A stretch of DNA of 23,651 nucleotides from a virus, in the IMG/VR virus record IMGVR_UViG_3300017971_000767, positions 1 through 23,651 of that record; one strand, 5' to 3'. This document shows, piece by piece, positions 800 through 13,433 of this stretch. The position numbers and the translations under genes are program-made. Below the pieces are notes generated by a model. That model did no database searches and was not told where the DNA came from. It saw only the letters and a program-made list of their open reading frames with translations. The stretch's first letter is position 1. Each line of letters starts with the position of its first letter.

Positions 800-948
800 G
801 CGGGCGCCAGGCCGCGCCGTGGCCCTGGACTACTTGGCCGGTCCGGGTGCCCGGAATAGTCCAGGCGGCCGCTCCGTGGGCCCTGCTGGGCGTCCTGGGC
901 CCTGTCCTGGGCCGTCCGGGCCGTGCCGTGGGTAAATACGGCCACAAG

Positions 949-1016: not shown

Positions 1017-1025
1017 AACGCCTAA

Positions 1026-1335
1026 AACTACGTTAAAAAGGCATTTACTACACTTACTACACTTTGCTAAAAAAACGTAGTATTTTATAACTTGTTTAAA
1101 ATTAATTTTTTACACTACGAAAACTACGTTACTACATACATATACATATACATATACATATATTTATTTATTTATATAAGAGGGGATCCCATTTTGTAGT
1201 TATTAAAATCCGTGTTTATGTGTGTGTGTGTATAAATCCAATTGTAGCGTAGTTTAGTAGTAGGCCTTGTAATTCAATGCCGCGCCGTGATATAAATATA
1301 TTACGCTGTCAAGTGGCCTAACTACGCTGTAGTAA
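1026..1335. repeat. AACTACG-type boxes in both orientations in AT-rich DNA
   Basis: AACTACGTT occurs at 1026-1034 and 1122-1130. A reverse-orientation copy, AACGTAGTA, is at 1074-1082, exactly 48 bases from each of them. Related boxes are GCGTAGTTTA at 1248 (reverse) and TAACTACGC at 1319 (forward). Short TACTAC words between them add partial copies. The surrounding DNA is very AT-rich. The arrangement suggests a multi-site protein-DNA complex, such as an origin or centromere-like site. Confidence 0.45.
1135..1225. repeat. Simple-sequence repeats (ACATAT, TTTA and TG tracts)
   Basis: A hexanucleotide ACATAT-type tract (about 1135-1162) passes into TTTA repeats (about 1162-1176), and a GT/TG tract lies at about 1217-1231. 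These low-complexity tracts are rare in compact phage genomes and make this the most easily melted part of the control region. Confidence 0.6.
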
Positions 1336-1469
1336 ATTTTTATAAATATCAAAATTATTCGTAAATATCATAAATGCCGGCCGCCGGTCCTGGGCCCTGG
1401 CCCTGGGCCGCCCGCGCGGCCGGATCCCGGCAATGGTGGAAAACCCGCCGGCGGTAAAAGGCTTGTATA

Positions 1470-1486
1470 TTATTGTATTACAATAA
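1470..1486. promoter_or_regulatory. Operator-like palindrome, copy 1
   Basis: A perfect 17-bp odd palindrome: arms TTATTGTA and TACAATAA around a single central T (1478). It is the first of three related sites upstream of the rightward early genes, centred at 1478, 1620 and 1660. Dyads of this size are typical of dimeric HTH or RHH repressors. Confidence 0.55.
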
Positions 1487-1608
1487 ATAAGCCGGATCCT
1501 GGGTTTGGCACGCTTTTTTAATAGCGTAAGGCCTTGAAAATAGGCGTTTTATATATGGTGGAAAATCCGGCATTTTCCGAGATCTCAGGCCCTTGGCCAG
1601 CCGTCCCG

Positions 1609-1631
1609 TGTTTATTGTAATACAATAAACA
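1609..1631. promoter_or_regulatory. Operator-like palindrome, copy 2 (strongest)
   Basis: A perfect 23-bp odd palindrome with arms TGTTTATTGTA and TACAATAAACA around a central A (1620). It lies just upstream of the best -35 candidate for the early operon (1635-1640). It shares the TTATTGTA core with the sites at 1470 and 1651, which argues against coincidence. Confidence 0.6.
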
Positions 1632-1634
1632 ATA

Positions 1635-1663
1635 TTGAGTTACGGCCCTATTTAATGTATTAC
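1635..1663 (+). promoter_or_regulatory. Candidate promoter for the first early operon
   Basis: TTGAGT (1635-1640), a 17-base spacer and TATTAC (1658-1663, 4 of 6 matches). It is flanked and overlapped by operator-like palindromes 2 and 3, which supports regulated initiation here. The weak hexamers leave room for another start site, since AT-rich DNA further downstream (1676-1692) contains other -10-like words without a good -35. Confidence 0.4.
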
Positions 1664-1669
1664 AATAAA
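1651..1669. promoter_or_regulatory. Operator-like palindrome, copy 3 (one mismatch)
   Basis: Arms TTTAATGTA and TACAATAAA around a central T (1660); one position in the left arm breaks the symmetry. It is 40 bases centre-to-centre from copy 2 and overlaps the candidate -10 box at 1658-1663, so a bound protein would block initiation. Confidence 0.5.
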
Positions 1670-1725
1670 TGGCATGATATTAGCTTTATATTGATCAAAC
1701 AAACACAAACCCAGGAGGTCGAAAA

Positions 1726-1913
1726 ATGAAAACAAGAGTTATCGAAAAAAACGGACGCCAGGCAGTCGCCACCATGTCGGCGCGGCCTCGAGCGTGCCGG
1801 GGATCGTGGCCTCGTTACACAAAAAGGACCTGGTAACAATTGACGACACGGATCCCGACGGTGAGACGATCGCGCTTACGGAAAAAGCCCTTAATTATCT
1901 CAAAGCCCTTTAA
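1726..1913 (+). pseudogene. Small winged-helix-like regulator split by a frameshift
   Basis: An ATG with a strong AGGAGG SD opens MKTRVIEKNGRQAVATMS in frame 1, which soon degenerates into Arg/Cys-rich sequence and stops at 1836. From about 1783 a different frame reads AASSVPGIVASLHKK, then DLVTIDD and ALTEKALNYLKAL, to a stop at 1911-1913. The second part looks like the recognition helix and wing of a MarR/winged-helix fold (GIVASLhKKdLV...ALTEKAL). Restoring one G in the GCG repeat near 1780 (GCGCGGCC to GCGGCGGCC) would give one continuous protein of about 62 residues. It is either a real inactivating deletion or a sequencing error. It lies directly behind the operator cluster, so it could encode its regulator. 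Confidence 0.55.
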
Positions 1914-1974
1914 CATTAACCCGCCGGCCGGGGTGCCCTGGGCCCTGGCCGGCAAAACCCAGGAGGTTTTATTT

Positions 1975-2154
1975 ATGAGTGAACAAAAAAAACGACGTGG
2001 CCGCCCGCGCTTACCCGAGGACGATCGCCTAGTGGCGTATAATATCCGGGTGCCGCTCGCGGTCAAGGCAAAGCTGGATCGGATCCCGGCGGTAAAGATC
2101 CGCGACGAGTTAACCAGGATCGCGCGCCAGGCGTTTGATCCCACGGCTGAATAA
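1975..2154 (+). CDS. Small RHH-like DNA-binding protein with a basic GRP tail
   Basis: A 59-residue protein. The N-terminus is a basic AT-hook-like patch (KKRRGRPRLP, residues 5-14). Then comes VAYNIRVPLAVKAKLDRI, which reads as the strand plus helix of a ribbon-helix-helix protein, followed by KIRDELTRIARQAF as the second helix. The ATG at 1975 is chosen because a strong AGGAGG lies 8 bases upstream; the reading frame is open further upstream but has no such signal. A role as a small dimeric regulator binding nearby operators is an inference. It is the second gene of the 1726-3062 operon. Confidence 0.7.
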   Translation: MSEQKKRRGRPRLPEDDRLVAYNIRVPLAVKAKLDRIPAVKIRDELTRIARQAFDPTAE

Positions 2155-2172
2155 TTTAACAAAGGCGGTATT

Positions 2173-2523
2173 ATGAAAAACAAAATTATCATTGAGTTAA
2201 CCCAGTTTGAGGCGGCCCAGGTTTACGCAATGGCCCTTAAACTCTTAGAGGGCGCCGGCTATCGTTACACGGCCCACGAAAAGGCGGCCGGCACGCGTGG
2301 CCTGGACAAGATCGACAAGGCAATACAGATCGCGGACCGGCGGGACCTGGCCGGGGTCCCGGCGCCCACGAAAAAGCGGATCCGCGAGGTCCTGAAAAAC
2401 CACGGATCATTTAAAACGGGCAAGGCCCAGGAGCGCGCGGATCAACGTAGCAAGTGTATGATCACTTATATTTGTGGCTACCGCGCGGCGGCCGCTAATA
2501 TCGAAAACGACCTTAACCTTTAG
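2173..2523 (+). CDS. Hypothetical early protein, 116 aa
   Basis: I do not recognise a family. The start MKNKIIIELTQFEAAQVYAMALKL suggests a beta strand followed by a long amphipathic helix, and the whole protein appears alpha-helical and lysine/arginine-rich, with no signal peptide or membrane segment. The SD (AAAGGCGG, 5 bases before the ATG) supports the start. It sits 18 bases after the RHH-like gene and 12 before the next gene, so it belongs to the same early operon. Small helical proteins in this position are often anti-host or regulatory factors, but nothing specific can be claimed. Confidence 0.7.
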   Translation: MKNKIIIELTQFEAAQVYAMALKLLEGAGYRYTAHEKAAGTRGLDKIDKAIQIADRRDLAGVPAPTKKRIREVLKNHGSFKTGKAQERADQRSKCMITYICGYRAAAANIENDLNL

Positions 2524-2535
2524 GAGGGCTCTATT

Positions 2536-2823
2536 ATGGAAAAAGAATATTATAGATCCGGCACGGGCAAAAACGGTCAACGCTTTGCGATCGAGCGCGT
2601 CTATTCTGGCGCCGCTCATCCGGGCGGCAAACCTCGGAGTAATTGGTATCTATTGGCCGATCTCGACGGTGCCGGATTAAAGCGGGCGCCGTTTGTTTGC
2701 CGCCGCCGTTTGGAAATTGTCAATCTTTACAAGCGGGTAATGAATCGCGAGGCCCGTATTGCCCGGATCGAGTTAAGCGAGGGCCTTTTTCCCGAGGTCA
2801 AGATCTTTAACGTAATTAACTAG
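2536..2823 (+). CDS. Hypothetical early protein, 95 aa
   Basis: No recognised family. The N-terminal half is Gly/aromatic-rich (YYRSGTGKNG, then SNWYLLADLDG), suggesting a small beta-structured domain; the C-terminal half is charged and helical (RRRLEIVNLYKRVMNREARI). It has one cysteine and no membrane segment. A strong SD (AGGAGGG) precedes the ATG, 12 bases after the stop of the gene before it, in a tightly packed early operon. Confidence 0.7.
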   Translation: MEKEYYRSGTGKNGQRFAIERVYSGAAHPGGKPRSNWYLLADLDGAGLKRAPFVCRRRLEIVNLYKRVMNREARIARIELSEGLFPEVKIFNVIN

Positions 2824-2837
2824 AGGAGGGTTTTATT

Positions 2838-3062
2838 ATGACAGTAGGCGAGTTAGTTAGCCGGCTGGAAAAGCTGGATCAAAGCGCCCAGGTTGCGATC
2901 GCAACGTGGAGCGCGGACGGCGGTAATTACTGGCTGTTACAACAAAACGCCCACGGCGAGTTAACCAAAAGGATCGCGCCGGCCCAGGGCGGCGGCACGG
3001 CGGTATTGATCGGCCACTTTGATCATTGCCAGGCCCACAACGCAAAACATATCTTTAAGTAA
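2838..3062 (+). CDS. Hypothetical early protein, 74 aa
   Basis: No recognised family. The opening MTVGELVSRLEKLDQSAQVAI is reminiscent of small phage proteins with a helix followed by a strand, where Asp/Gln residues precede a hydrophobic beta strand, and the rest (TWSADGGNYWLLQQN) is beta-like. The SD GAGGAGGG lies 8-15 bases before the ATG. It is the last gene of the first early operon; an intrinsic terminator follows 30 bases after the stop. Confidence 0.7.
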   Translation: MTVGELVSRLEKLDQSAQVAIATWSADGGNYWLLQQNAHGELTKRIAPAQGGGTAVLIGHFDHCQAHNAKHIFK

Positions 3063-3088
3063 AAGATACCTGTAAAGAAAAAAGCCAC

Positions 3089-3121
3089 AAGGCCCGGCGT
3101 CGCTCGCCGGGCTTTTTTTTT
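3089..3121 (+). terminator. Intrinsic terminator closing the first early operon
   Basis: A perfect 8-bp GC stem (GCCCGGCG at 3092-3099 with CGCCGGGC at 3105-3112), a 5-base loop (TCGCT) and a run of nine T (3113-3121). AA upstream can pair with the first Ts and lengthen the stem. It is oriented for rightward transcription and lies 30 bases after the stop at 3062. Confidence 0.9.
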
Positions 3122-3495
3122 GCCCGGACCTGGGCCCTGGGCCCGGCGGGTTTGTCAAGTAAAACGCTTTAAAGTTGTCAAGCAAATTTTTAAAAATCGT
3201 TTTTAATTCCAAAAATAAAATAACGTCGATTTTCAGAGACAAACGACGAGCTGGCCAGGCCGGCGCCGGCGCCGGGCAGCCCGGACCGCCCGCAATGCGA
3301 AAACTTTACAGGTTGCGACGCGAAAAAATAAGGCCCTGGGCCGGCGCCCGTGCGGTTACAAAGTTATAAAGTATTGACGCTAAAAAGTAATAAATATATA
3401 TTCGTAATATGGGCGCCGGTTAACTGGTTGGCCGGGTCCGGCGGCAAAGGGCCGGCGGGGATCCCACGGCGCCCGTGTTTTTACCTGGCGAGTAT
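3122..3495. other. Gene-free stretch between the two early operons
   Basis: About 370 bases without a credible gene. It contains a GC island of GGGCCC/CCTGG words (3122-3150), two direct repeats of TTGTCAAG (3152-3159 and 3175-3182, 23 bases apart), a perfect 12-bp palindrome ATTTTTAAAAAT (3186-3197), a GGCGCC-rich patch (about 3255-3290) and a clear promoter at 3374-3402. The repeats and palindrome could be regulator sites, but they lie about 180-220 bases upstream of the promoter. Confidence 0.6.
3374..3402 (+). promoter_or_regulatory. Strong sigma70-like promoter of the second early operon
   Basis: TTGACG (3374-3379), a spacer of exactly 17 AT-rich bases and TATATT (3397-3402): 5 of 6 matches at each box. 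It faces the run of rightward genes starting at 3496 and lies after the terminator at 3121, so it starts a separate transcript. The leader would be about 85 bases. Confidence 0.7.
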
Positions 3496-3765
3496 ATGGA
3501 CCGCGTGACCTTTGAGCAAATTAAAGCCCTTTGTATTCACATAGAGGATCAAAATTTACAGGCGATCCGCGACCTGTTTAAAAAATACGGCGGCGACTAT
3601 GATCGCGTCGACGTTTTACTTTTCAATTCTAATTTATTCCCGGAATTAATGGGCTATCGTTTGCCGGCCAGGATCCGCTTGACGGACAAGTTACCGGCAA
3701 GTATAGCCGGCCTTATTCTTAACCCGGAAAGCTGGCATAATAAATTTTTAAAAGGCGGTATTTAA
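3496..3765 (+). CDS. Hypothetical early protein, 89 aa
   Basis: No recognised family. The ATG at 3496 (MDRVTFEQIKALCIHIEDQN) is preferred over a GTG at 3475, because the seven residues added by the latter do not look like protein and neither start has an ideal SD (GGCGAG is close to the ATG). The protein is mostly helical with two hydrophobic segments too short for membrane spans (VDVLLFNSNLFPELM and SIAGLIL). First gene behind the promoter at 3374, with a TAATG overlap into the next gene that implies coupled translation. Confidence 0.6.
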   Translation: MDRVTFEQIKALCIHIEDQNLQAIRDLFKKYGGDYDRVDVLLFNSNLFPELMGYRLPARIRLTDKLPASIAGLILNPESWHNKFLKGGI

Positions 3766-3941
3766 TGGGAAATATTTACAAACAAAATAAACTTTGCACG
3801 CTGGGACCTAAAGAGTGTATAAGCCAGCCGCGCGGGTGCTATTTTTGCCGAACCATAAGGGACCGTAATATTAAGGGCCAGGTCAAGCGGTCCCATCAGA
3901 TCCCGGCCGTGGATCCTAAAAGAAATATTGAAAACAATTGA
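3765..3941 (+). CDS. Short Cys-rich protein, probable zinc-binding
   Basis: A 58-residue gene whose ATG overlaps the stop of the gene before it (TAATG). Cysteines at 11, 18, 25 and 28 (the last pair as CYFC) suggest a single zinc site, followed by a basic segment (RTIRDRNIKGQVKRSH). An SD-like AAAGGCGG lies upstream. The last 14 bases overlap the sigma-like gene that follows. Zinc-binding is read from Cys spacing only; the function is unknown. Confidence 0.6.
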   Translation: MGNIYKQNKLCTLGPKECISQPRGCYFCRTIRDRNIKGQVKRSHQIPAVDPKRNIENN

Positions 3942-4125
3942 CGATCAGATCCTTTTGCGCGCCCTTTGCCGGCGGCTTAACGATCGGGAATTAGTTATTA
4001 TTCACATGAAATATTTTGAGGGATATAACCAGGCCGAGATCGCGCGGCATTTACATTTATCCCAGTCGCGGATCTCTCAAATAAAAACGGCGGCAATACG
4101 CCGCTTACAAAAGGCGGTAATATGA
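3928..4125 (+). CDS. Sigma70 region-4-like HTH protein
   Basis: A 65-residue protein that is essentially one region-4-type helix-turn-helix: LNDRELVIIHMKYFEGYNQA, then EIARHLHLSQSRISQIKTAA. It shows the conserved pattern L..rE..ii.l.y.eg.s..EIA..l..S.srisqi...ai..L. In sigma factors this domain contacts the -35 box; as a stand-alone protein it may redirect host RNA polymerase or act as a late-gene activator (inference). The start is a TTG at 3928, because no ATG/GTG precedes the domain and the first ATG (4006) lies inside it. Only a weak AAAAGA precedes the TTG, so translation may depend on the overlapping gene upstream. Confidence 0.75.
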   Translation: MKTIDDQILLRALCRRLNDRELVIIHMKYFEGYNQAEIARHLHLSQSRISQIKTAAIRRLQKAVI

Positions 4126-4337
4126 AAACGGAAAAGCTAGGCATTGACGATCTTGTTGAGGTCAACGATCCCCAGGTTGCCAAACTGATAAGCGGCCGCG
4201 CTTTCAAAATGGGCCGTGTCTGTGAATTGCACGAGGATCCACGCTTTGTTAAGGTGAGATCATCTAATCCAAAATGTGATCTGGAAACGGCCGAGGTTTG
4301 GTTTAGCACGGATCAGCTAGATAAAGTAAACACTTAA
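4122..4337 (+). CDS. Hypothetical early protein, 71 aa
   Basis: No recognised family. It starts by an ATGA overlap with the sigma-like gene, with SD AAGGCGG just upstream. The composition (GIDDLVEVNDPQVAKLISGR, then MGRVCELH and VKVRSSNP, and a final AEVWFSTDQLDKV) reads as a small all-beta, SH3/KOW-like fold. The overlap suggests co-translation and possibly joint function with the sigma-like protein. Confidence 0.65.
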   Translation: MKTEKLGIDDLVEVNDPQVAKLISGRAFKMGRVCELHEDPRFVKVRSSNPKCDLETAEVWFSTDQLDKVNT

Positions 4338-4356
4338 ATCATAGGAGGCTTTATTT

Positions 4357-4542
4357 ATGGACACGGTTTTAAATTGTAAGGTCCCAGCCGTTACGGATCG
4401 CGCTTTAAATATTTATTGCGCGACCAAAGGGACCACAAAAAAGGACGTGGTAACGGCGGCCCTGGACAAGGCGATCCCGCCCGAGTTTTTCAAAACGGCC
4501 GAGGCCGAGATCAACGGGAAAAAGCGAGGGGGTAAAGGATGA
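4357..4542 (+). CDS. RHH-like small DNA-binding protein
   Basis: A 61-residue protein with the outline of a ribbon-helix-helix fold: a strand (TVLNCKVPAV), helix 1 (TDRALNIYCATKG), a turn with TTKKDVV and helix 2 (VTAALDKAI), then a short basic tail (NGKKRGGKG). RHH proteins usually dimerise and bind palindromic operators; this and the protein at 1975 are the two candidates for the TTATTGTA sites. A strong SD (AGGAGG) lies 9 bases before the ATG. The stop overlaps the next start (ATGA). Confidence 0.6.
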   Translation: MDTVLNCKVPAVTDRALNIYCATKGTTKKDVVTAALDKAIPPEFFKTAEAEINGKKRGGKG

Positions 4543-4763
4543 AATTAGCCGGCAATTTATTTTTAATGACATTGCTGGGCCTGGTTATTTATAAAGAGAC
4601 AGGATCGATCAGCGTGCCGGTCCTGTTTTTTTTAACCTGGACCTGGATCGCTATTGTCCGGCGTGATCTAAAAAATACCCAAAAATTCACGGCCCAGGCC
4701 GGCCGGCTTATAAGATCAATGAAATTAAACAAAGGGGATCGGAATGGCAAAGGCAAAAATTAA
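4539..4763 (+). CDS. Small membrane protein, two predicted spans
   Basis: A 74-residue protein with two hydrophobic segments, LFLMTLLGLVIY (about 7-18) and SVPVLFFLTWTWIAIV (about 25-40), then a long basic tail (RRDLKN to the end, rich in Lys and Arg) that would remain in the cytoplasm. It starts by an ATGA overlap behind a GAGGGGG SD. It is in an early operon, not beside the lysis genes, so a holin role is unlikely; superinfection exclusion or membrane anchoring of replication are possibilities without further support. Confidence 0.65.
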   Translation: MKLAGNLFLMTLLGLVIYKETGSISVPVLFFLTWTWIAIVRRDLKNTQKFTAQAGRLIRSMKLNKGDRNGKGKN

Positions 4764-4980
4764 GGCGGTTATTATAGGCGATCGTAAGGTCGAGTTTGAC
4801 GGCGTTAATGTGCCCGGCTATCATCAATATCTAAAAGAGACAGCGCGGGAATTTTTAAAACGGACATTGACGCCGGCCGAGTATAACAGGACCACGGACA
4901 TAGAGATCGACATTTACCGGCAAAAGAAAACCCGGCATATAGGGGGGCCGTCGCATGGCCAAAAAAACAATTTTAAATAA
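4744..4980 (+). CDS. Hypothetical early protein, 78 aa
   Basis: No recognised family. It overlaps the gene before it by 20 bases and the next one by 26, consistent with tight packing. The sequence begins MAKAKIKAVIIGDRKVEFDG, a basic head followed by an edge beta-hairpin, then a helix (HQYLKETAREFLKRTL) and a strand (DIEIDIYR). AAGGGG upstream is an acceptable SD. Confidence 0.6.
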   Translation: MAKAKIKAVIIGDRKVEFDGVNVPGYHQYLKETAREFLKRTLTPAEYNRTTDIEIDIYRQKKTRHIGGPSHGQKNNFK

Positions 4981-5197
4981 GATCACTGTCTCGGCCCAGT
5001 TAAGAATTACGATAAATAAAAAAGAAAAATTAAACGACGCCGAGTATAGCACGATCGCAAAATTTAACGAGTCGATCCCGGCCCTTATACAAGAGATCGA
5101 GAAAAAAACGGCCGTTACTTTTTTGGAATTAATAGGCGAGTTTCACGAGCGCGAGCGCCGCCGTAAAAAGGCGGCAAAGGGTAAGGCTAAAAAATAA
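4955..5197 (+). CDS. Hypothetical basic helical protein, 80 aa
   Basis: No recognised family. It has a beta-strand head (LNKITVSAQLRITINK), a long amphipathic helix (ESIPALIQEIEKKTAVTFLELIG), and a strongly basic tail (RERRRKKAAKGKAKK) that could bind nucleic acid. The SD is a run of Gs about 9 bases upstream. It ends 11 bases before the primase gene and is probably translated with it, which makes a replication-accessory role conceivable but unproven. Confidence 0.6.
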   Translation: MAKKTILNKITVSAQLRITINKKEKLNDAEYSTIAKFNESIPALIQEIEKKTAVTFLELIGEFHERERRRKKAAKGKAKK

Positions 5198-5208
5198 GAG
5201 GGTTAACA

Positions 5209-8007
5209 ATGTCCAAAATAGATTTTGAGAAGATCGCCCAGGCGGCCGCCGGCCGGATCCTGGACCTGGCCCAGGCATGGATCCCAGGCGGCCGCGTCGA
5301 GGGTAAAGAATATTTAATGATTAATCCAAACCGGCCAGATCAACGGCTGGGATCATTCAAGATAAATATTGATACTGGACAGTGGGCCGATTTTGCCGCC
5401 AGTGAAACGGGCGGGGATATTATATCTTTTTGCAAATATGTAAGGGGATTTTCTAACCAGGGCGAGGCCGCCGAGTTTGTGGCCCAGGCGCTCGGCGTGC
5501 CGGCCCAGGACGCCCAGGGCGCCCAGGTCCCGGCCCGCTCAAAGCCGGCCGAGGTTTGGAAAATGATCGCGCCGGTCCCGGCCGACGCGCCGCCGCCCTT
5601 TGAAAAACATTTTAAACTCGGTAAGCCGTCCGGGCGCTGGACCTATAAGGACCGCGCCGGCCAGGTGATCGGGTATGTTTACAGGTTTGAAACGTCCGAG
5701 GGAAAGCAAATTTACCCGGTTACATACCGCGTAAACGGCCGAGGCTTACGATCCTGGCGCTGGAAAGGGTTTAATAAACCGCGCCCATTATACGGCCTTG
5801 ACAGGCTCGCCAGCGCGCCAGGCGAGCAAGTGGTTATTGTCGAGGGCGAAAAGGCCGCCGAGGCCGGCCGGGCCCTGTTTGGTGACATTGCGATCGTCGT
5901 TACCTGGCACGGCGGCACGGAAAACGTAAAGAACACGGATTTTAAACCGCTCAAAGGCCGCAAGGTTGTAATCTGGCCCGACGCGGACAAACCAGGGATC
6001 GAGGCGGCCGATCGGATCGCCTATCTTATAAAGGACATTGCCCAGGCCGTTAAGATCGTAAACCCGCCGGCCCAGGCGCCGCGCGGCTGGGATCTCGCGG
6101 ACGCCCAGGCTAAGGGCTGGACCACGGCCCAGGTGATCCAAACCTTACAAAAGAATTTAAGGGATCCCGATCCGGCCGGCGCCGTTGAACCACGGCCCGC
6201 GCCGCCCGTGGGCCCTGGGCCCGGACCGGGCCGGCCGCCGGCCCAGGCGCCGCCGCCCACGAGCAAGGCATTTAATAGGGATAGTTACCCATTTAGGATC
6301 CTGGGATATGACGGGACAAGTTTTTATTATTTGCCGGACGGCGGCCAGCAAATAGTCGCTTTAACAGGTGAACAACACGACAAAAAACATTTAAGCGCGT
6401 ATTTAGCGCCGATCGATTTTTGGATCGATACCTGGACAAGTATAAAAAAGGTTAAGGATGAAAAAGGCAATTGGACAGAAAAGCGCGGCGGCGTTGACTG
6501 GGAGGCGGTAAAGCGGTTTTTAATATGGGAATTACAATATAAACACGGCGTTTATAACGGCGACGGCGCGATCCGTGGCCCTGGGATCTGGCGGGATAAT
6601 AAACGCTATGTTATCCACTTGGGCGACCGGCTGATCGTTGACGGCCAGGTTTTCAAAATGTCCAAACTTGAAAGCCCTTTTATATATGAGCGTAAACGGA
6701 CAAAGGAATTACAGATCCTTGATCCGTTGCCAGGCGCCGAGGCGCGGGCCCTGATCGATATTGTAAATAGTTTTTCCTGGGCAAAAGAAATAAATGGGCC
6801 TTTACTTGCCGGCTGGATCGTCGCCGGCTTAATGGGCGGCGCGTTGCCCTGGCGCCCTCACTTGTGGATCAACGGTCCGCAAAGTTGCGGCAAGTCGAGC
6901 GTATTAAAGGACGTGGTAAGGCGGATCCTGGGCGGCTGTATAGGAATCTATATTGAGGGCGCGACAACAGAGGCCGGCCTTAGACAGCATACTAACCATT
7001 GCAGTTTTCCGATCCTATTCGACGAGGCCGAGAGTAACGACCGCAAGGGTCAGGTCCGCATGGAGCAAATAATTGAATTAATGCGATCGAGCGCCAGCCC
7101 GGACGGCGGCAAGCTGTTAAAAGGTACGCCGCGCGGTTACGCCCAAACTTACGACGTGCAAAGCTGTTTTTGTCTGGCGTCCGTGTCCAATAATTCTAAC
7201 CTGGCGGCCGACGTGGCCCGGATCGTCAATCTTGAAATGTCGATCCCATCTAGCGCCGGCGAGAAATGGGAAAGTTTACGCGGCCGGGTAATGGACACGC
7301 TTAACCCGGAATTTTGCGGCCGCTTTCGTGCCCGTGTCTTTAAAATGTTACCCGTGATCCGCGAAAATATAGATACATTTATTAAGGCGGTCCGCGACGA
7401 GTTAGATAGTCAACGCTATGGCGACGTTTACGGCGTGTTACTGGGCGCCGCGTACTCAATTGACCACGACGATCGGATCGGCTACCCGGCCGCCCTGGCC
7501 CTGGTTAAAGATCAGGACTGGACAGAGGAGCGCGCGCAAAAATTCGACAAGGACGAGATCAAAGCAATGGTTAAAATTTTACAAAGGATCATAACGGTTA
7601 AGGGTCCCAGGACACAAGATAAAACAATTTGGGAATTATTAAAAATATGTCACGAGGGCCCGGCCGCGCCGGTTTACGACGACTTTGGAAATAAGGACCT
7701 GGATCAATTGACAAAGGCCGAGGCCGATCAGGCGGTCAGGCGTTACGGGGTTTTATATAAATACGAGGACGGCCAGCCCTGGGTATTGATCGCAAATAAT
7801 AACATCTATATTGAAACATGGTTAAAAGATACGCCCTTTAGTCCAAATTGGTATAAATGGTTAAAGCGGATCCATGAAACGATCGACGGCAAAGAGTTTG
7901 TGGCCCGGCCGCTCACGGCCCGCGTTTTCCAAAAAGGCCAGCCCTCGGCCCGTGGCGTAATGATCCCTTATGAGATCGCCGGCTATTACCTGGATCCAAA
8001 GGATTAA
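5209..8007 (+). CDS. Phage primase-helicase (TOPRIM primase fused to P-loop ATPase)
   Basis: A 932-residue replication protein. Residues 1-96 resemble the N-terminal domain of plasmid/phage primases (GSFKINIDTGQWADFAASE...GGDIISF) but lack the usual zinc cysteines. A TOPRIM domain follows: VVIVEGEKAAEAG (208-220), carrying the catalytic Glu, and WPDADKPG (256-263), carrying the acidic D-x-D pair. A Pro/Gly/Ala linker spans 320-352. The C-terminal half holds a P-loop NTPase with Walker A GPQSCGKSS (556-564) and Walker B ILFDEAE (602-608), as in phage/plasmid DUF927- or D5-type helicases. It should unwind DNA and lay primers at the fork. The GAGGG SD and context make the start secure. Its isoleucine codons show the GATC bias described under findings. 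Confidence 0.92.
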   Translation: MSKIDFEKIAQAAAGRILDLAQAWIPGGRVEGKEYLMINPNRPDQRLGSFKINIDTGQWADFAASETGGDIISFCKYVRGFSNQGEAAEFVAQALGVPAQDAQGAQVPARSKPAEVWKMIAPVPADAPPPFEKHFKLGKPSGRWTYKDRAGQVIGYVYRFETSEGKQIYPVTYRVNGRGLRSWRWKGFNKPRPLYGLDRLASAPGEQVVIVEGEKAAEAGRALFGDIAIVVTWHGGTENVKNTDFKPLKGRKVVIWPDADKPGIEAADRIAYLIKDIAQAVKIVNPPAQAPRGWDLADAQAKGWTTAQVIQTLQKNLRDPDPAGAVEPRPAPPVGPGPGPGRPPAQAPPPTSKAFNRDSYPFRILGYDGTSFYYLPDGGQQIVALTGEQHDKKHLSAYLAPIDFWIDTWTSIKKVKDEKGNWTEKRGGVDWEAVKRFLIWELQYKHGVYNGDGAIRGPGIWRDNKRYVIHLGDRLIVDGQVFKMSKLESPFIYERKRTKELQILDPLPGAEARALIDIVNSFSWAKEINGPLLAGWIVAGLMGGALPWRPHLWINGPQSCGKSSVLKDVVRRILGGCIGIYIEGATTEAGLRQHTNHCSFPILFDEAESNDRKGQVRMEQIIELMRSSASPDGGKLLKGTPRGYAQTYDVQSCFCLASVSNNSNLAADVARIVNLEMSIPSSAGEKWESLRGRVMDTLNPEFCGRFRARVFKMLPVIRENIDTFIKAVRDELDSQRYGDVYGVLLGAAYSIDHDDRIGYPAALALVKDQDWTEERAQKFDKDEIKAMVKILQRIITVKGPRTQDKTIWELLKICHEGPAAPVYDDFGNKDLDQLTKAEADQAVRRYGVLYKYEDGQPWVLIANNNIYIETWLKDTPFSPNWYKWLKRIHETIDGKEFVARPLTARVFQKGQPSARGVMIPYEIAGYYLDPKD

Positions 8008-8013
8008 AAAAAA

Positions 8014-8229
8014 ATGAAATGTAACGAGTGTGAGAATATATGCAAAGATCAATTTTTAGAATTTAAGGCCCTGGTAAAGGGCGGCACGGAAATAAAAGTA
8101 TTTAGGCGGCTCTGCTATAATTGTTTGAAAAAATTTTTATTAGAATTATTTTTAGATGAATTAAAAAACGGTCACGTTGACGACATATTAAAAAATCACG
8201 GGCTTAAAATTGTGTCAATCGAACAATAA
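8014..8229 (+). CDS. Short protein with two Cys pairs, probable zinc-binding
   Basis: A 71-residue protein. CNECENIC (Cys 3, 6, 10) and CYNC (34, 37) form a likely zinc ribbon, followed by a helical region (KKFLLELFLDELKN). It starts 6 bases after the primase stop and is probably in the same transcript; the SD is poor (AAGGA, then a run of A). Function unknown; small zinc ribbons next to primases can be accessory DNA-binding factors (inference). Confidence 0.65.
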   Translation: MKCNECENICKDQFLEFKALVKGGTEIKVFRRLCYNCLKKFLLELFLDELKNGHVDDILKNHGLKIVSIEQ

Positions 8230-8383
8230 AGGGTGCCCATTTTATCGTAACGGGTGCCCGGTTGTAAATTGTGAATTAAGATTTACGCCGGCCCGGTGTG
8301 CTTATTATGCTGAAATGAAAAACAAGGCGCCGGCCGGGGATCCAGAAAAAGAAAAGCCGCCGGAATTTTACGGCGACTTTTAA
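8210..8383 (+). CDS. Short Cys-rich protein (TTG start)
   Basis: A 57-residue gene read from a TTG at 8210, the only plausible start after the in-frame stop at 8189, overlapping the previous gene by 20 bases. Cysteines at 2, 9, 16, 21 and 30 suggest a compact metal-binding knot (KGCPFYRNGCPVVNC...ARCAYY), followed by an acidic, Pro-rich tail (GDPEKEKPPEFYGDF). Coding is supported by the sensible composition; the start is uncertain and no good SD is seen. No family recognised. Confidence 0.5.
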   Translation: MCQSNNKGCPFYRNGCPVVNCELRFTPARCAYYAEMKNKAPAGDPEKEKPPEFYGDF

Positions 8384-8400
8384 TTTTAGAGGGTTGTATA

Positions 8401-8649
8401 ATGGCCCATCAATTAGGCCGATATATCAATAAATTATATTTTATGTCCTGGATCATCAAGTATTTTAAGCGCGTCGCTTGTGCTTTTTGCCACGCCAGCC
8501 AGGCCGCCCGCCGCTTTAACCTGATCTATAAAATTCCTTTGATTTTCGGACGGCCGCCCAGCCGGTCCCTTGACCTCGATCGCAACAAATACGGCTACCC
8601 GATCCCCTATCATATCCGGCGTAACGGTAAGGACACGCCAGCCGATTAA
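8401..8649 (+). CDS. Doubtful small ORF, convergent with the nuclease gene
   Basis: An ATG follows a good SD (AGAGGG, 7 bases before it), giving MAHQLGRYINKLYFMSWIIK and 82 residues in total. From 8434 onward the frame runs antisense to the VRR-NUC gene, whose protein is clearly real, and its composition (HASQAARRF, GRPPSRSLDLDR) looks like a shadow. The SD is the only positive evidence. It may be a relic or may not be a gene. Confidence 0.2.
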   Translation: MAHQLGRYINKLYFMSWIIKYFKRVACAFCHASQAARRFNLIYKIPLIFGRPPSRSLDLDRNKYGYPIPYHIRRNGKDTPAD

Positions 8650-8799
8650 ATCAGATCCCCCAGGCGCTACGCCGTATTTAACCAGGGATCCGTCGCGGGC
8701 CCTGGCCGCGCCGCGATTATTCCTAAATAGGCGCGTGTCCTGGCGGCCGCCCAGGTCCTTTAATATTTTATTTTGGATCGGTGTCTCTATTTTGCCCAT
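8434..8799 (-). CDS. VRR-NUC family nuclease
   Basis: A 121-residue protein with the VRR-NUC (PD-(D/E)XK-like) arrangement: an N-terminal helix with TPIQNKILKDL, FRNNRGAARARDG, KYGVAPGGSDLIGW (the catalytic Asp of the G-x-x-D motif), VFVAIEVKGP (the E-x-K motif) and NQRNFIDQVKAAGG, the conserved basic/Gln segment. Single-domain VRR-NUC proteins are common in phages and act as structure-specific endonucleases on replication or recombination intermediates. It overlaps the gene upstream by 32 bases and is the last gene of the leftward helicase operon, converging on the gene ending at 8383. Confidence 0.88.
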   Translation of the reverse strand: MGKIETPIQNKILKDLGGRQDTRLFRNNRGAARARDGSLVKYGVAPGGSDLIGWRVLTVTPDMIGDRVAVFVAIEVKGPAGRPSENQRNFIDQVKAAGGLAGVAKSTSDALKILDDPGHKI

Positions 8800-9199
8800 G
8801 AGTATTAACCGGCGCCGGCCCGGATCCGCGCGAGGCCTGGATCTTGCCTATTTCAAAGTTAAGGCGATCTAAGGCCTTTTGTATTTTGTCCGGGTTGTTT
8901 AACCAGGCCGGATCTAATTTCTGATAAGTAACGGCTTTTAATTTTTCACTGAATAGCTGGCCAAATTTTTGACCTCGGGCCCTGGCCTCGGCCCTGGCCT
9001 GTTTTGATGTCCCGCGAAAAAATTTGATATGTTTTATTGTCGTAGTAAAACCATCTTGATCGATATAAACGACGGCGCCGCTTTGAAGCTGGGCCAGAAA
9101 AGCCCACAAGTTAATAGGATCGTTTAATTCTAATTCTTTGAGGACCTGGGCCGGGTGTTTTATCGGCGCCCGCGTTTTAACGTCGTGGTTTATTCTCAT
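8768..9199 (-). CDS. Hypothetical protein between helicase and nuclease
   Basis: 143 residues from the ATG at 9199, which lies 4 bases after the helicase stop. A longer frame from a TTG at 9298 would run inside the helicase gene, and its extra residues look like shadow sequence. The protein contains HPAQVLKELELNDP, a hydrophobic pair of segments (INLWAFLAQLQSGAVVYID) and a lysine-rich helical C-terminus (KIQKALDRLNFEIGKIQ). No recognised family. Its position between an SF2 helicase and a VRR-NUC nuclease suggests a role in the same DNA transaction. Confidence 0.65.
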   Translation of the reverse strand: MRINHDVKTRAPIKHPAQVLKELELNDPINLWAFLAQLQSGAVVYIDQDGFTTTIKHIKFFRGTSKQARAEARARGQKFGQLFSEKLKAVTYQKLDPAWLNNPDKIQKALDRLNFEIGKIQASRGSGPAPVNTHGQNRDTDPK

Positions 9200-9203
9200 G
9201 CTT

Positions 9204-10634
9204 TTAATATAATCTATTAGCGCGCTGGGCCGCTTTCTTTTGCCTGGCCGCCCATATATGGTTAGCCCAGCCCGGTTTATACCCGCGTATTTGTTCAAGG
9301 CGTAAAAGCTGGGCCAGGCTATTAGCGCGGCCCTGGGTCCGGCGCCGATCCTGGCGGGCCCGGATCTCGGCCATTTCCTCGGGCGTTAATCTCTTTAGGG
9401 TGCCCTGGACCTGATCAATTTTCCGCTCTTGCCCGATCCATTTTTCGCCGCATTGCGGACAGGCCGCCAGGTGGATCGGGAAAACGGCAAAACATTTTTT
9501 ACACTGTCTAACGCGCTCGACCTCGGATCCGTTACCGCGCCGGGCCTGGCGCTCTTGCTCGGCCAGGGTCCAGGATCTAACCTCGTCAACTAATCCGTGG
9601 CGGCCCGTGTTATTAACATGATCTAAAATTATGCTTTCTTTTTTCTCCGGGTGTATTCTAAGGATCCGGCCGCATTGCTGTAAAAACATACCCAGGCTTT
9701 TAGTGGGCCGCAAAAGGATCGCGGCCGTAACGATCGGTATATCGGTTCCCTCGCTTACAATTTCACAAGAGGTTAAAACCTTGATCTGGCCGTCGCCCAG
9801 GGCCCGGATCCTAAAAGCGCGCTGGGCGTTTGTCATTGTCCCGTCAAGTCTGGCGGCCGGGATCCCGGCGGCGTTAAATTTCTCGGCCACGTTTGCCGCG
9901 TGTTTTATTGATATGCAAAAGGCGATCGCCGGCGCGCCGGGACATATTTTTTTATAATGGCCCACGGCGTCGCCCGTGATCTGTGATTTATCGATCCGCA
10001 ATTCTAGATCGTCCTGGGCATAGTCGCCGCCGCGTGTCTTTACGCCGGTTATGTCGATCCCGATCGGCGGCGCGTAAACGACCGGCTGGGACAAATACCC
10101 ACGATCTATTAACTCGCGGATCGACGGTCCGCAAACAAGGCGATCAAAATAACCTTGATACTGGGCGCCCAGGCCGTCGCCGTTTGTCCGGCAAGGTGTA
10201 GCGGTCACGCCGAGCAAATAGGCGCCAGGGTAATAAGCCGCGACTTTCCCCCACTTGTTACCTTTTATACAGTGGTGGGCCTCGTCGATAATAATAATAT
10301 CAGGCGGCGGGATCCTGTCCAGGCGCCGGATCACGGTGTCAACGCTTGCGACCTGGACAAGATCGCCGGTCATTACGCGGCCCGGCCGGATCAAACCGTG
10401 AGGCGTCCCGATTTCGGTTAATTTTTCGGACGCTTGATCTAATAATTCTTTTCTGTGGACAAGGATCATTATACGGTTGCCGCGCGCGGCCGCTTGCTCG
10501 GCAATGTGACAAAATACGATCGTTTTACCGCCGGCCGTGGGCAATACATAAATGGGCGCTTTATATCCCTGGCGGTACGCGGTCCGCAAGTCGTTAACGC
10601 CCTGGGCCTGGTAATCTCGTAATTGATATTTCAT
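9204..10634 (-). CDS. SF2 DNA helicase (DEAH box) with a zinc ribbon
   Basis: A 476-residue RecA-fold helicase. Motif I LPTAGGKT (31-38), motif II DEAH (117-120), motif III VTATPCRT (143-150), motif V SEGTDIP (294-300) and motif VI QQCGRILR (319-326) are all present and in order. A zinc ribbon follows (CKKC at 378-381 and CPQC at 392-395). Phage SF2 proteins of this type act in replication-fork remodelling or recombination. The SD GGCGG lies 5-9 bases before the ATG at 10634. It heads a leftward operon with 9199 and 8799, driven by the promoter at 10712-10740. Confidence 0.93.
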   Translation of the reverse strand: MKYQLRDYQAQGVNDLRTAYRQGYKAPIYVLPTAGGKTIVFCHIAEQAAARGNRIMILVHRKELLDQASEKLTEIGTPHGLIRPGRVMTGDLVQVASVDTVIRRLDRIPPPDIIIIDEAHHCIKGNKWGKVAAYYPGAYLLGVTATPCRTNGDGLGAQYQGYFDRLVCGPSIRELIDRGYLSQPVVYAPPIGIDITGVKTRGGDYAQDDLELRIDKSQITGDAVGHYKKICPGAPAIAFCISIKHAANVAEKFNAAGIPAARLDGTMTNAQRAFRIRALGDGQIKVLTSCEIVSEGTDIPIVTAAILLRPTKSLGMFLQQCGRILRIHPEKKESIILDHVNNTGRHGLVDEVRSWTLAEQERQARRGNGSEVERVRQCKKCFAVFPIHLAACPQCGEKWIGQERKIDQVQGTLKRLTPEEMAEIRARQDRRRTQGRANSLAQLLRLEQIRGYKPGWANHIWAARQKKAAQRANRLY

Positions 10635-10653
10635 TTACCGCCTTTAAGAAAAG

Positions 10654-10689
10654 CCGGGCGCCCAGGTTTTAACAGGGACAGGCGCCCGG
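10654..10689 (-). promoter_or_regulatory. Hairpin in the helicase leader
   Basis: A perfect 9-bp inverted repeat (CCGGGCGCC and GGCGCCCGG) with an 18-base loop, lying between the predicted leftward start point (about 10705) and the helicase ATG. There is no U-tract, so it is not a terminator; it may stabilise the leader or bind a protein. Confidence 0.4.
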
Positions 10690-10711
10690 TTTAACGTTGC
10701 GCTTAAAAATT

Positions 10712-10740
10712 AATATATAAAAATGTAAATTAAAAATCAA
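10712..10740 (-). promoter_or_regulatory. Leftward promoter of the helicase operon
   Basis: On the minus strand TTGATT (10740-10735), a 17-base AT-rich spacer and TATATT (10717-10712): 4 of 6 and 5 of 6 matches. It is divergent to the promoter at 10773-10801, with about 30 bases between the two -35 boxes. Confidence 0.65.
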
Positions 10741-10764
10741 TATTTCCAGTTATTTTTAATTATC

Positions 10765-10784
10765 CATAATTATTGACAATTATG
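10765..10784. promoter_or_regulatory. Operator-like dyad between divergent promoters
   Basis: A perfect 7-bp inverted repeat, CATAATT and AATTATG, separated by 6 bases (ATTGAC). It covers the -35 box of the rightward promoter (10773-10778) and lies about 25 bases from the -35 of the leftward one, so a bound dimer could control both. Confidence 0.5.
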
Positions 10785-10801
10785 TTTTATTTTTATATCT
10801 T
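10773..10801 (+). promoter_or_regulatory. Rightward promoter of the recombination operon
   Basis: Perfect TTGACA (10773-10778), a 17-base spacer and TATCTT (10796-10801, 4 of 6). It lies 30 bases before the ATG of the first gene at 10831. Confidence 0.65.
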
Positions 10802-10830
10802 TAGTATTAAAACCTAGCCGAGGCGGCAAA

Positions 10831-11016
10831 ATGTTAGATCCAGAATTAGGCGACGCTGAATTAAAAATCATCTATGATCAGGCGGCAAAGATTTTGCCTC
10901 ACTTGGCAAGGCTGGCCCGGACCTATTACCTTGAATTAAAAAAACAGGAATTTACGGATCGTGAGTGCATACATTTAACGGCTGATTATATAGCTACGAT
11001 AAGCGGCAAACATTAA
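10831..11016 (+). CDS. Small hypothetical protein, 61 aa
   Basis: No recognised family; predicted to be entirely helical (GDAELKIIYDQAAKILPHLA, LARTYYLELKKQ). SD GAGGCGG is well placed. It is the first gene of the rightward recombination operon, behind the promoter at 10773. Confidence 0.65.
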   Translation: MLDPELGDAELKIIYDQAAKILPHLARLARTYYLELKKQEFTDRECIHLTADYIATISGKH

Positions 11017-11029
11017 CAAAGGCGGTATT

Positions 11030-11212
11030 ATGAAAGTTATCAAAGTTACTTACGGGGATCGCGCCGAGCAATTAAAGGCGCGGATCCAGGTTTACAAACA
11101 GTTAGAGGACAAGACAGGGGATCGGCGGCTCTTGTCCCATTATCGTTATTGCATCCGTAAGGCGTTAGATGAATTTACCCGCGTGATCGGGCTGGCCGGG
11201 CGGTCTATATGA
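11030..11212 (+). CDS. Small hypothetical protein, 60 aa
   Basis: No recognised family. A short strand (MKVIKVTYGD) is followed by two basic helices (RAEQLKARIQVYKQLEDK and RLLSHYRYCIRKALDEFTRV). SD AAAGGCGG precedes the ATG. It overlaps the nuclease gene by an ATGA, so the two are probably translated together. Confidence 0.65.
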   Translation: MKVIKVTYGDRAEQLKARIQVYKQLEDKTGDRRLLSHYRYCIRKALDEFTRVIGLAGRSI

Positions 11213-12012
11213 TCTATATCCGCGCTTCATTGTTGCCTTATTATTTTGACTGTCCGCGCCGGGGGTCCTGTCAATTATTTGGCCGTGAGATCGAAAGTTA
11301 TGATTATAAATTAAAATGGGTATCTAAGGGCGTGGCCGCGATCGTGGGCACGGCCGCCCATGAAAGCGCCGGCCATATTGTTGACGGCCTGGCCGCCCAG
11401 GGCGAGCGCGGAAAACTCGCGGACGCCACGGAAAAAGGGATCGTAAAATATCGGTCCGAGTTTGAAAAGGGCGCCGAGTTTGACGACGTAACGCCAAACA
11501 ATAACCACGCGGAAAAACAGATCGAGACACTAACCCGATCCTATTATCACGAGATCGCGCCAGCCCTGGACCTGGGCCAGATCGAGCGTGAGGTTAGCCT
11601 AAAGGCCCAGGTGGATCAAGATACAATATTAAGCGGTCACATTGACATTAACAGCGCCCAGGCGGTCCGGGATATGAAAACCGGGCGGCCCGGCGGTTAC
11701 TTGCCGCAATTAGGCGGCTATTCTCTTTTAAGAAATTCAAACGGTTATAATAAGGCCCGCGCTTGTTTTGTCGATCACTTACCCAGGACGCCGATCGCCA
11801 AACCTTACCCAGGCGCCAGGTCGATCCAGGTCGATCGCTTTTTATGCGAGGAGTCAGCATTTAGCACGATCAAGGCGATCCAAAATCATTATAACGATTT
11901 TATGAAAACCGGGCGGCCCTGGGCTTTTCCGGCAAACCCTAAAAGCGTTTTGTGTAATCCTAAATATTGCCGCGCTTACGGCACGGCGTTTTGTAAACTC
12001 GGAGGGCTTTAA
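11209..12012 (+). CDS. Cas4/RecB-like PD-(D/E)XK nuclease, probably Fe-S
   Basis: A 267-residue protein with the RecB-nuclease core: GTAAHES (His 51, motif I), SGHIDIN (Asp 146, motif II), VRDMKTG (Asp 155 and Lys 157, the D/E-x-K motif) and LPQLGGYS (Gln 167). One or both N-terminal cysteines (15, 21) and the C-terminal set (249, 254, 262) match the arrangement of Cas4/AddB-type proteins that close an iron-sulfur cluster. It should degrade DNA ends, probably as a 5'-3' exonuclease that produces recombinogenic tails (inference from the family). It is co-transcribed with the Gp3-like protein and the zinc-hook ATPase. Confidence 0.85.
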   Translation: MIYIRASLLPYYFDCPRRGSCQLFGREIESYDYKLKWVSKGVAAIVGTAAHESAGHIVDGLAAQGERGKLADATEKGIVKYRSEFEKGAEFDDVTPNNNHAEKQIETLTRSYYHEIAPALDLGQIEREVSLKAQVDQDTILSGHIDINSAQAVRDMKTGRPGGYLPQLGGYSLLRNSNGYNKARACFVDHLPRTPIAKPYPGARSIQVDRFLCEESAFSTIKAIQNHYNDFMKTGRPWAFPANPKSVLCNPKYCRAYGTAFCKLGGL

Positions 12013-12180
12013 ATGATCAAGCGGCTTTTAATTTCGATCCTGGCCGGCGCCCTGTTTATGGGCGTTGTCTATAATGAGATCTTACGGTCCGGGCCCTGGG
12101 CCGGCATATCGGCCGGCTTTGGGATCCTGTCTGGCCTATTAGTTTTTTTTATTCTTAATAATCTTAAACAAAGGTGGTAA
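12013..12180 (+). CDS. Tiny membrane protein, two hydrophobic segments
   Basis: A 55-residue protein with LLISILAGALFMGVVY (about 5-20) and AGISAGFGILSGLLVFFIL (about 30-48). Basic ends (KR at 3-4, KQRW at the C-terminus) suggest both termini face the cytoplasm. A strong GGAGGG SD is placed 6 bases before the ATG, which directly follows the nuclease stop. Function unknown; an odd member of a recombination operon. Confidence 0.7.
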   Translation: MIKRLLISILAGALFMGVVYNEILRSGPWAGISAGFGILSGLLVFFILNNLKQRW

Positions 12181-12182
12181 AA

Positions 12183-13433
12183 ATGCAAACAGAAAAGAGT
12201 TTAACCATTAAAAACCTAGTGCCGGGGTTAACGGAGCGCGGCAAGATCAAGATCGGGGAAAAAGGCGACTGGGTTAAAAGTCGCGGCGGTAAAGATTTTC
12301 AATTACCTAAAAAGCTGGATCACTTTTTAATTACCACAATGGAGCGCGACGCGCGGACCGGGAATTTTTTACAAGACACGGAACTAATGGAAAACCTGGC
12401 CGGCGACGGTCCGCTTACCAGGATCCCGATCCGTTTGCTGTATAATGATATTGAGTTAAATTTTCAAACACGTTATTCATGTTATAGCGGAACTCAATTA
12501 GTTTGCTACGGCGACGGACAGGACGCTTATAGGCTCAATAAGGATCAGGCCCGCGATCGTGTCCCGTGTCCATGCCAGGCCCAGGATCCAAAATACAATG
12601 GGCAATATAAATGCAAGATCAACGGTACGCTCTCTTGTATTATTGACAGCGCCGAGATCGTGGGCGGGGTCTGGAAATTTAGAACAACGTCCTATAATAG
12701 CGTTGTCGGTATTTTGTCCAGTCTTACGTTGATCCGGCGTATATCCGGCGGCTACCTGGCCGGCTTGCCGCTCGACTTGACGATCGCGCCCAAAACTGTA
12801 AACAATCCAATTGACGGCAAGGCTCAAACGGTATGGGTTGTTAATATCGAGTTTAAGGGATCGGTCCAGGCTCTACGCGACGAGGGGTATAGATACGCCC
12901 TTGAAGATAAAAAACACGATCTAAGGATCGCGGACATTGAGGCCGAGGCAAAGCGGCTATTGTCGCCGGACGCGGCCGGGTTTAATGAAATAGCCGAGGA
13001 CGTGAAAACGGAATTTTACCCGCAAGATGAAAAGGGGGATCGTATAGGTGAACCTGGGACCGGCGCGGCGCCGCCTATGGCCCAGCCGGCCGAGGATCCC
13101 GGCCAGGGCCCGGACGGGGCCCAGGACGCGGGCCAGCCGGCCCAGGGCCCGGACAAGGCCCAGGGCGGCGGCAAAACCCAGCCGGCAAAAAAGGGAAAGC
13201 GCGGCCGGCCGTCAAAGACAAAGGACGCGGATCCCGCGCCGCCTATGGCCCAGCCGGACGCCGGCGGGGATCCGGGACCGGCCCAGGGCGCCCAGGACGC
13301 GGGCCAGCCGGCCCAGGGCCCGGACATTACCAATAAGCCGGCCGAGGCCCAGGACGGCGCCCAGGACGCGCCAGGCGGCAAACAGGACACAAGTGGCGGC
13401 CAGCCGGCCGGCGGTAAACTTTCACTATTCTAG
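12183..13433 (+). CDS. Gp3/RDF-like phage protein with a repetitive C-terminal tail
   Basis: 416 residues from the ATG at 12183 (AAAGGTGG SD), rather than a GTG 9 bases upstream. The N-terminal ~270 residues match, from memory, the phage family often labelled 'hydrolase or metal-binding protein' or Gp3-like recombination directionality factor: GKIKIGEKG, KKLDHFLITT, VPCPC with nearby cysteines, and WKFRTTSYNSVVGILSSL. The cysteines (PCPC, YKCK, LSC) suggest a metal site. The tail (about 280-416) is low-complexity Ala/Gly/Pro/Gln/Asp with an internal duplication and an AT-hook-like KRGRPSK. The role is uncertain: in some phages this family reverses integrase direction, but no integrase is seen here and its neighbours are recombination genes. 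Confidence 0.75.
   Translation: MQTEKSLTIKNLVPGLTERGKIKIGEKGDWVKSRGGKDFQLPKKLDHFLITTMERDARTGNFLQDTELMENLAGDGPLTRIPIRLLYNDIELNFQTRYSCYSGTQLVCYGDGQDAYRLNKDQARDRVPCPCQAQDPKYNGQYKCKINGTLSCIIDSAEIVGGVWKFRTTSYNSVVGILSSLTLIRRISGGYLAGLPLDLTIAPKTVNNPIDGKAQTVWVVNIEFKGSVQALRDEGYRYALEDKKHDLRIADIEAEAKRLLSPDAAGFNEIAEDVKTEFYPQDEKGDRIGEPGTGAAPPMAQPAEDPGQGPDGAQDAGQPAQGPDKAQGGGKTQPAKKGKRGRPSKTKDADPAPPMAQPDAGGDPGPAQGAQDAGQPAQGPDITNKPAEAQDGAQDAPGGKQDTSGGQPAGGKLSLF
13068..13326 (+). repeat. In-frame internal duplication in the tail-coding region
   Basis: A 37-bp direct repeat occurs at 13119-13155 and 13290-13326 (171 bases apart) and a 22-bp one at 13068-13089 and 13236-13257 (168 bases apart). Both offsets are multiples of three, so about 56-57 codons were duplicated in frame and then drifted. 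It encodes two copies of APPMAQP...GAQDAGQPAQGPD. Confidence 0.8.

Follow-up and report, generated by a model that had tools for sequence, protein, structure and literature searches.

Isoleucine codons follow the neighbouring DNA letters in a virus genome with an extreme, GATC-led oligonucleotide dialect

Genome content and nearest relatives

The DNA analysed here, called the window throughout, is the whole of the linear IMG/VR virus record IMGVR_UViG_3300017971_000767 (positions 1 to 23,651), which comprises 23,651 bases with a GC content of 50.8%. The following features were recognized:

1..23651 (no strand): the whole window, with 367 GATC sites spread evenly and one homogeneous oligonucleotide dialect
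5209..8007 (+): primase/helicase ORF of 932 aa; Toprim (PF01751), DUF6371 (PF19898) and phrog_35358 (E = 6e-87)
9204..10634 (-): RadD-like superfamily II helicase; 51% identity to Bordetella phage PBb002
12174..13433 (+): Gp3-like recombination-directionality-factor-like protein; PF18897
13446..15101 (+): RecF/SbcC-like ATPase
15282..15710 (+): predicted Dam-family N6-adenine methyltransferase, small (142 aa); PF05869, NPPF motif
17950..18987 (-): Mu gp48-like baseplate/tail protein; PF10076
18997..20088 (-): baseplate J-like protein; PF04865; 42-43% identity to Bordetella phages PBb001, PBb002 and PY223
20614..22776 (-): ORF of 720 aa, without an assigned function

The predicted methyltransferase matches PF05869 with an E-value of 8.5e-32 and TIGR01712 with an E-value of 1.5e-24, the latter match falling under the curated cutoff of TIGR01712. 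No nucleotide-level relative of the window was found by megablast among 50,697 phage records. The nearest named phages for the helicase (about 51%), the primase (about 34%) and the baseplate J protein (about 42%) are the Bordetella phages PBb001, PBb002 and PY223, and single-protein searches of IMG/VR for close relatives yielded none for the primase, none for baseplate J and only distant ones for the helicase.

Isoleucine codon choice

According to the original prediction, isoleucine in the primase gene is written ATC in 33 of 35 cases when the base before the codon is G, but in only 4 of 31 cases otherwise. A recount gave exactly these numbers (after G: 33 ATC, 1 ATT and 1 ATA; not after G: 4 ATC, 14 ATT and 13 ATA; Fisher P = 5e-12). 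Pooling the genes, which had been named as a way in which the dependence might disappear, preserves it: over 20 genes ATC is used in 186 of 209 cases after G and in 25 of 236 otherwise (Fisher P = 5e-69), and when the primase is left out the figures are 153 of 174 and 21 of 205 (P = 1e-57). Single genes repeat the pattern, namely the RadD-like helicase (20/20 after G, 2/22 otherwise), the RecF/SbcC-like ATPase (20/22, 6/20), the baseplate J-like gene (10/12, 0/15) and the 720-aa ORF (26/29, 3/33). The primase ORF, with 47 GATC sites, is itself ordinary for this genome (16.8 sites per kb versus 15.5 per kb window-wide).

The same dependence in unrelated genomes that have no excess of GATC would have counted against a role of the motif, and it was not seen in 268 other loci. 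There, the log2 odds ratio of the isoleucine rule has a median of about 0 and correlates with the GATC excess (Spearman 0.70), and it is at most 0.78 throughout the 94 loci without a GATC deviation. The window, with a value of 6.3, ranks first of the 269 loci, and the runner-up reaches 2.7. Because the odds ratio follows the GATC excess and is near zero where there is no excess, the isoleucine rule can be regarded as a by-product of the word GATC. In short, this genome chooses its isoleucine codons by the neighbouring DNA letters, and is the strongest case among the approximately 270 related stretches of virus and genome DNA compared.

GATC excess in all frames and codon tuning on both sides

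The window contains 367 GATC sites, compared with 92 expected from base composition (3.97-fold), 65 in dinucleotide shuffles and 145 under a trinucleotide Markov model. The sites are distributed evenly (37-54 in each 3-kb piece), and their spacing across the window is Poisson-like, at about 16 per kb. The hexamer GGATCC occurs 56 times (2.4 per kb), against 6.0 expected from base composition.

For the genes, we used a synonymous shuffle in which codons are permuted among positions of the same amino acid, so that both the protein and the codon usage are preserved; a shuffle preserving codon pairs cannot work here, because it keeps every codon junction. Within genes, GATC occurs 262 times against 85 in the shuffles (z about 25), which places it at the top of all 256 tetramers, the next of which has a z of 13. 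It exceeds the shuffle in each of frames 1, 2 and 3 (63 versus 28, 29 versus 2.3 and 170 versus 55, with z of 10, 19 and 21, respectively). Outside the ORFs of at least 80 aa, 50 GATC sites were found in 4.3 kb, compared with 16.6 expected from composition, in sequence that may include short genes; the excess factor is thus 3.0 outside ORFs and 3.1 in genes, the two being calculated on different baselines.

The codon preceding isoleucine is tuned as well. Before isoleucine, fourfold-degenerate codons end in G in 127 of 195 cases; before methionine they do so in 1 of 33, and before AAN codons in 10 of 254. Of 28 glycine codons followed by TC, 27 are GGA, compared with 12 of 71 before other T, and CGA makes up 9 of the 13 arginine CGN codons followed by TC but 4 of 267 such codons elsewhere. 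Serine codons preceded by xGA are TCN without exception (43 of 43, versus 128 of 249 otherwise). For aspartate, GAT is used in 68 of the 99 cases in which C follows, whereas asparagine, tyrosine and histidine before C favour C. The words that differ from GATC in its outer base are all depleted (CATC 0.16, AATC 0.51 and TATC 0.73 of expectation). A dependence on the neighbouring base similar to that of isoleucine was also recognized for glutamine (CAG makes up 88 of 101 codons preceded by C, but 0 of 30 preceded by G), glutamate (GAG makes up 116 of 131 codons preceded by C and 11 of 40 preceded by G), phenylalanine, lysine, aspartate, glycine, arginine and serine.

A preference for single codons cannot produce such tuning on both flanks of GATC. 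Translational selection or codon-pair bias, by which a G-ending codon followed by ATC would be translated better, agrees with a pattern visible at codon junctions, but GATC is in excess in the two remaining frames as well, and also in sequence that lies outside ORFs. Translation is therefore excluded as the sole cause, and we give this explanation almost no chance of being the right one. Since both flanks of the motif are tuned, and since the excess is found in all frames and outside ORFs, it is a DNA word, not a codon, that is favoured. The earlier argument that a DNA motif shapes the synonymous sites, and that tRNA abundance cannot do so, is thus supported by the all-frame excess over the synonymous shuffle and further by the sequence outside ORFs and the codons before isoleucine.

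Genome-wide word dialect

The part of the earlier interpretation that places a motif at the DNA level on synonymous sites holds; its framing around isoleucine and the primase does not, because GATC heads a long list of words that the genome either favours or avoids. For the mean squared tetramer z, the window has a value of 19.1, the highest among 269 loci, for which the median is 3.7, and the window also ranks first in the z of GATC (23, followed by 10.7). In the same common analysis of loci it is first for the glutamine and aspartate rules and second for the glutamate rule. This composition is homogeneous, each piece of the window correlating with the remainder at r = 0.88-0.95. GATC is, in other words, the top word of an extreme oligonucleotide dialect that spans the genome.

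On the side of the avoided words, GCAG/CTGC and GAAG/CTTC occur 8 times each, both strands summed, against nearly 200 expected, a depletion of about 25-fold. Of the 64 palindromic hexamers, 30 are absent, and several others are enriched 4- to 14-fold; the abundant ones include GCCGGC (88), CGGCCG (76), GGCGCC (58), GGATCC and CGATCG (43). Several missing palindromes have Markov expectations of 5-23, such as CCGCGG (0 versus 23), CCCGGG (0 versus 11) and TCCGGA (0 versus 7.5).

Some further features of the composition were noticed. CCGCGG and CCCGGG are absent while GCCGGC and CGGCCG rank among the commonest hexamers of the window, and GGCGGA/TCCGCC occurs twice, with 26 expected. G/C and A/T bases are clustered in runs (AA/TT 1.4-1.5 and CC, CG and GC 1.2-1.4 of expectation), and the mixed dinucleotides AC, AG, CA, CT, GA and TG stand at 0.64-0.75 of expectation.

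Many missing palindromic hexamers are reminiscent of the avoidance of restriction sites and palindromes in phages and bacteria. If the host carried many restriction systems, their targets might be lost until mainly GATC, protected by methylation, remained; the absent palindromes, the Dam-family methylase gene of the phage and the existence of whole bacterial genomes with extreme word avoidance (for example, the mirror-image genome G560 described below) are all in keeping with this. However, the non-palindromic tetramers GCAG, GAAG, GGAG and GAAC are depleted as strongly as the palindromes, several classic palindromes are over-represented, and the restriction targets GGCC, CCGG and GCGC are strongly enriched or common. 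Nor should such a funnel lift GATC twelvefold over the synonymous shuffle in frame 2. Restriction avoidance accounts for the missing palindromes, but not for GATC above the shuffle or for the missing non-palindromes, and as a full explanation we judge it unlikely.

The Dam-family methylase

The predicted methyltransferase gene and the position of GATC far ahead of every other word would suit a selection for GATC as methylation marks, set by the phage Dam-family enzyme or by a host Dam, in which case the purpose of the dense sites would lie in protection, packaging, the timing of replication or mismatch repair. The phage gene was considered as the driver of the excess and failed in this role: in eight unrelated phages that bear a PF05869 gene, GATC ranges from 0.19 to 2.85 of expectation, and the isoleucine rule is mostly reversed or missing. 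Conversely, no PF05869 gene was found in the 340 related or homologue loci, among which are GATC-rich ones, or in the contigs with a similar dialect described below. A phage-borne Dam-family methylase is thus insufficient for the GATC excess and apparently not needed for it. Methylation marks would also leave unexplained the dozens of further words that are favoured or avoided, and strand marking should require a far lower density than the 16 sites per kb, spaced in a Poisson-like manner, that are seen. We therefore regard selection for such marks as improbable, to about the same degree as the loss of restriction targets.

Comparison with known systems

In the subcluster B3 mycobacteriophages (Pipefishvirus), GATC and GGATCC are both present at about four times expectation throughout the genome, without an accepted cause (PMC4841201). 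The window shares with them the approximately fourfold, genome-wide GATC excess, and its GGATCC likewise exceeds four times expectation. In Phlyer, which we take to be a B3 phage (its record gives the genus Pipefishvirus), GATC is at 4.1 of expectation and GGATCC at 1.8 per kb, and in each of the frames GATC lies above the synonymous shuffle (194 versus 121, z = 8.6). With the number of codons equalized, however, the excess in the window is far stronger (255 versus 85, z = 23), and its isoleucine rule is near absolute. The two genomes also differ in GC content (67.5% in Phlyer versus 51%), and their tetramer profiles are uncorrelated (r = -0.18). The window was not recognized as a member of Pipefishvirus: it has no megablast match to any of the phage records, and its genes resemble proteins of Bordetella phages.

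The second system is HIP1 of cyanobacteria, whose variants include GCGATCGC and GGGATCCC, with GGCGCC and GCCGGC as exceptional HIPs, and whose origin has been proposed to lie in methylation-dependent mismatch repair and orphan methyltransferases (PMC4390886). GATC-centred palindromes at high density are common to HIP1 and the window. A repair process of this kind, which would make and keep iterated palindromes, gains some appeal from the abundance in the window of the cores of GCGATCGC and GGGATCCC and of GGCGCC and GCCGGC, and from a cyanobacterial genome (G1600) with a moderate isoleucine rule (ATC in 72 of 114 cases after G, 54 of 158 otherwise). However, HIP1 is a fixed 8-mer on an otherwise ordinary background, and the excess in the window sits at the level of a 4-mer with varied flanks, within a broad dialect. 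The octamers are not highly iterated in its 23.65 kb, GCGATCGC having 4 copies (0.17 per kb) and GGGATCCC 7 (0.30 per kb). The sample covered 390 cyanobacterial genomes, and those rich in GGATCC that were read use a different dialect: seven of them (G1493, G1518, G1532, G1557, G1568, G1580 and G1590; loci L506-L512, L514 and L515) have GGATCC at 2.75-4.2 per kb genome-wide, and the four whose octamers were counted have GGGATCCC at 0.75-1.4 per kb, which is the HIP pattern, but their tetramers show no correlation with those of the window (r from -0.12 to 0.10). A HIP1-like origin accordingly seems very unlikely to us, more so than methylation marks or restriction avoidance.

Very-short-patch repair by Dcm/Vsr raises CCWGG and lowers neighbouring words, acting on the deamination of methylcytosine. 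CCWGG is abundant in the window (239), but the Vsr process yields no GATC. Considering the GATC excess of the B3 phages and HIP1, the kind of phenomenon was already known; what is new is the strength of the excess and the breadth of the dialect.

Search for a host and for other carriers of the dialect

The tetramer profile of the window was absent from all 340 related loci, and no locus from the alignment-based searches, which gave 80 loci each, has the dialect (best r = 0.52). A scan of IMG/VR for two CCTGGGC and one GGATCC close together found a 48-kb virus contig, IMGVR_UViG_3300037540_000254 (L435, L499 and L500), with GGATCC at 2.3 per kb, versus 2.4 in the window. Its tetramers correlate with those of the window at r = 0.6 and its synonymous z values at 0.68, and it favours the same palindromes, although part of this likeness is due to the selection of the sample, since the search pattern itself contains GGATCC and CCTGGGC. 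The contig has no depletion of GCAG (observed/expected about 1.0). It probably carries a related dialect and perhaps has a related host. GGCC stands at 3.2-3.6 and GAAG at 0.3 of expectation in it. Three other contigs from the scan show a milder likeness.

About 1,940 bacterial genomes, each of which was screened by one diagnostic word, the outliers then being read, yielded no host with this dialect. The contrast between SGCAGCS and its reversal was used for 398 Pseudomonadota, 118 Desulfobacterota, 59 Planctomycetota and 385 Alphaproteobacteria (the phylum or class being deduced from the named locus on which each sample was centred), and the density of GGATCC for 12 and a further 369 proteobacteria, 115 Verrucomicrobiota, 80 Elusimicrobiota and the 390 cyanobacteria. 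Two genomes, G560 and G640, looked right in GCAGC but avoid GATC, and were rejected as the host type; G911 and G752, as well as the GGATCC-rich proteobacteria, Verrucomicrobiota and cyanobacteria, were rejected on account of profiles that differ from that of the window.

Proposed origin of the dialect

The explanation that we prefer, at somewhat better than even confidence, is that the genome would be at equilibrium with a strand-symmetric, frame-blind process that favours some short words and removes others, with GATC favoured above all others and the choice of codons simply a consequence. The process may be context-dependent mutation or repair, or a fixation bias acting on the DNA, inside the host cell, and the phage would then bear the dialect of its host; a repair bias linked to methylation is one plausible form. 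An excess that ignores the reading frame and continues outside ORFs speaks for a process in which DNA, and not protein, is read. Because neither a host nor a close relative was found in the searches above, we infer, rather than observe, that the host probably imposes the dialect. If the dialect is set by a cellular environment common to both, the sharing of favoured words with the 48-kb contig would be expected. Selection at the DNA level would leave much of the same trace as a mutation or repair bias. It is also conceivable, but we think it doubtful, that the phage or its host possesses a new context-dependent mutation or repair system, possibly directed by methylation, which would turn near-miss words into GATC, erase words such as GCAG and GAAG and hold the whole genome in a restricted set of words.

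Codon choice is usually read in terms of translation or base composition; here, the preceding base predicts in about nine of ten cases whether or not isoleucine is ATC, and the codons of glutamine, glutamate, aspartate, glycine and serine are partly predicted by a neighbouring base too. With the host in hand, such a strong case would allow a direct test of whether mutation, repair, methylation or selection sets the oligonucleotide signature of a genome, and the dialect may be used as a tag to find that host and its other phages.

A natural contrast to the window is provided by G560, a 2.6 Mb Planctomycetota MAG in which GATC is almost erased. In the approximately 74 kb read (L341-L346), the observed/expected ratio is 0.01-0.07 for GATC and 0.01-0.04 for GGCC, and isoleucine follows a mirror rule, with ATC used for 2 of the 275 codons preceded by G and for 484 of the 814 others. 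The 1.7 Mb genome G640 (L349-L352), drawn with the Alphaproteobacteria, the class of L114, behaves similarly: ATC is used in 7 of 310 cases after G, the observed/expected ratio is 0.04-0.11 for GATC and 0.01-0.04 for GTAC, and GCAGC is much more depleted than GCAG. CTAG and GTAC are also nearly absent from the stretches of G560, and CTAG is practically absent (observed/expected 0.00-0.01) from the Parabacteroides phage PM708P4 (L372) and from locus L365.
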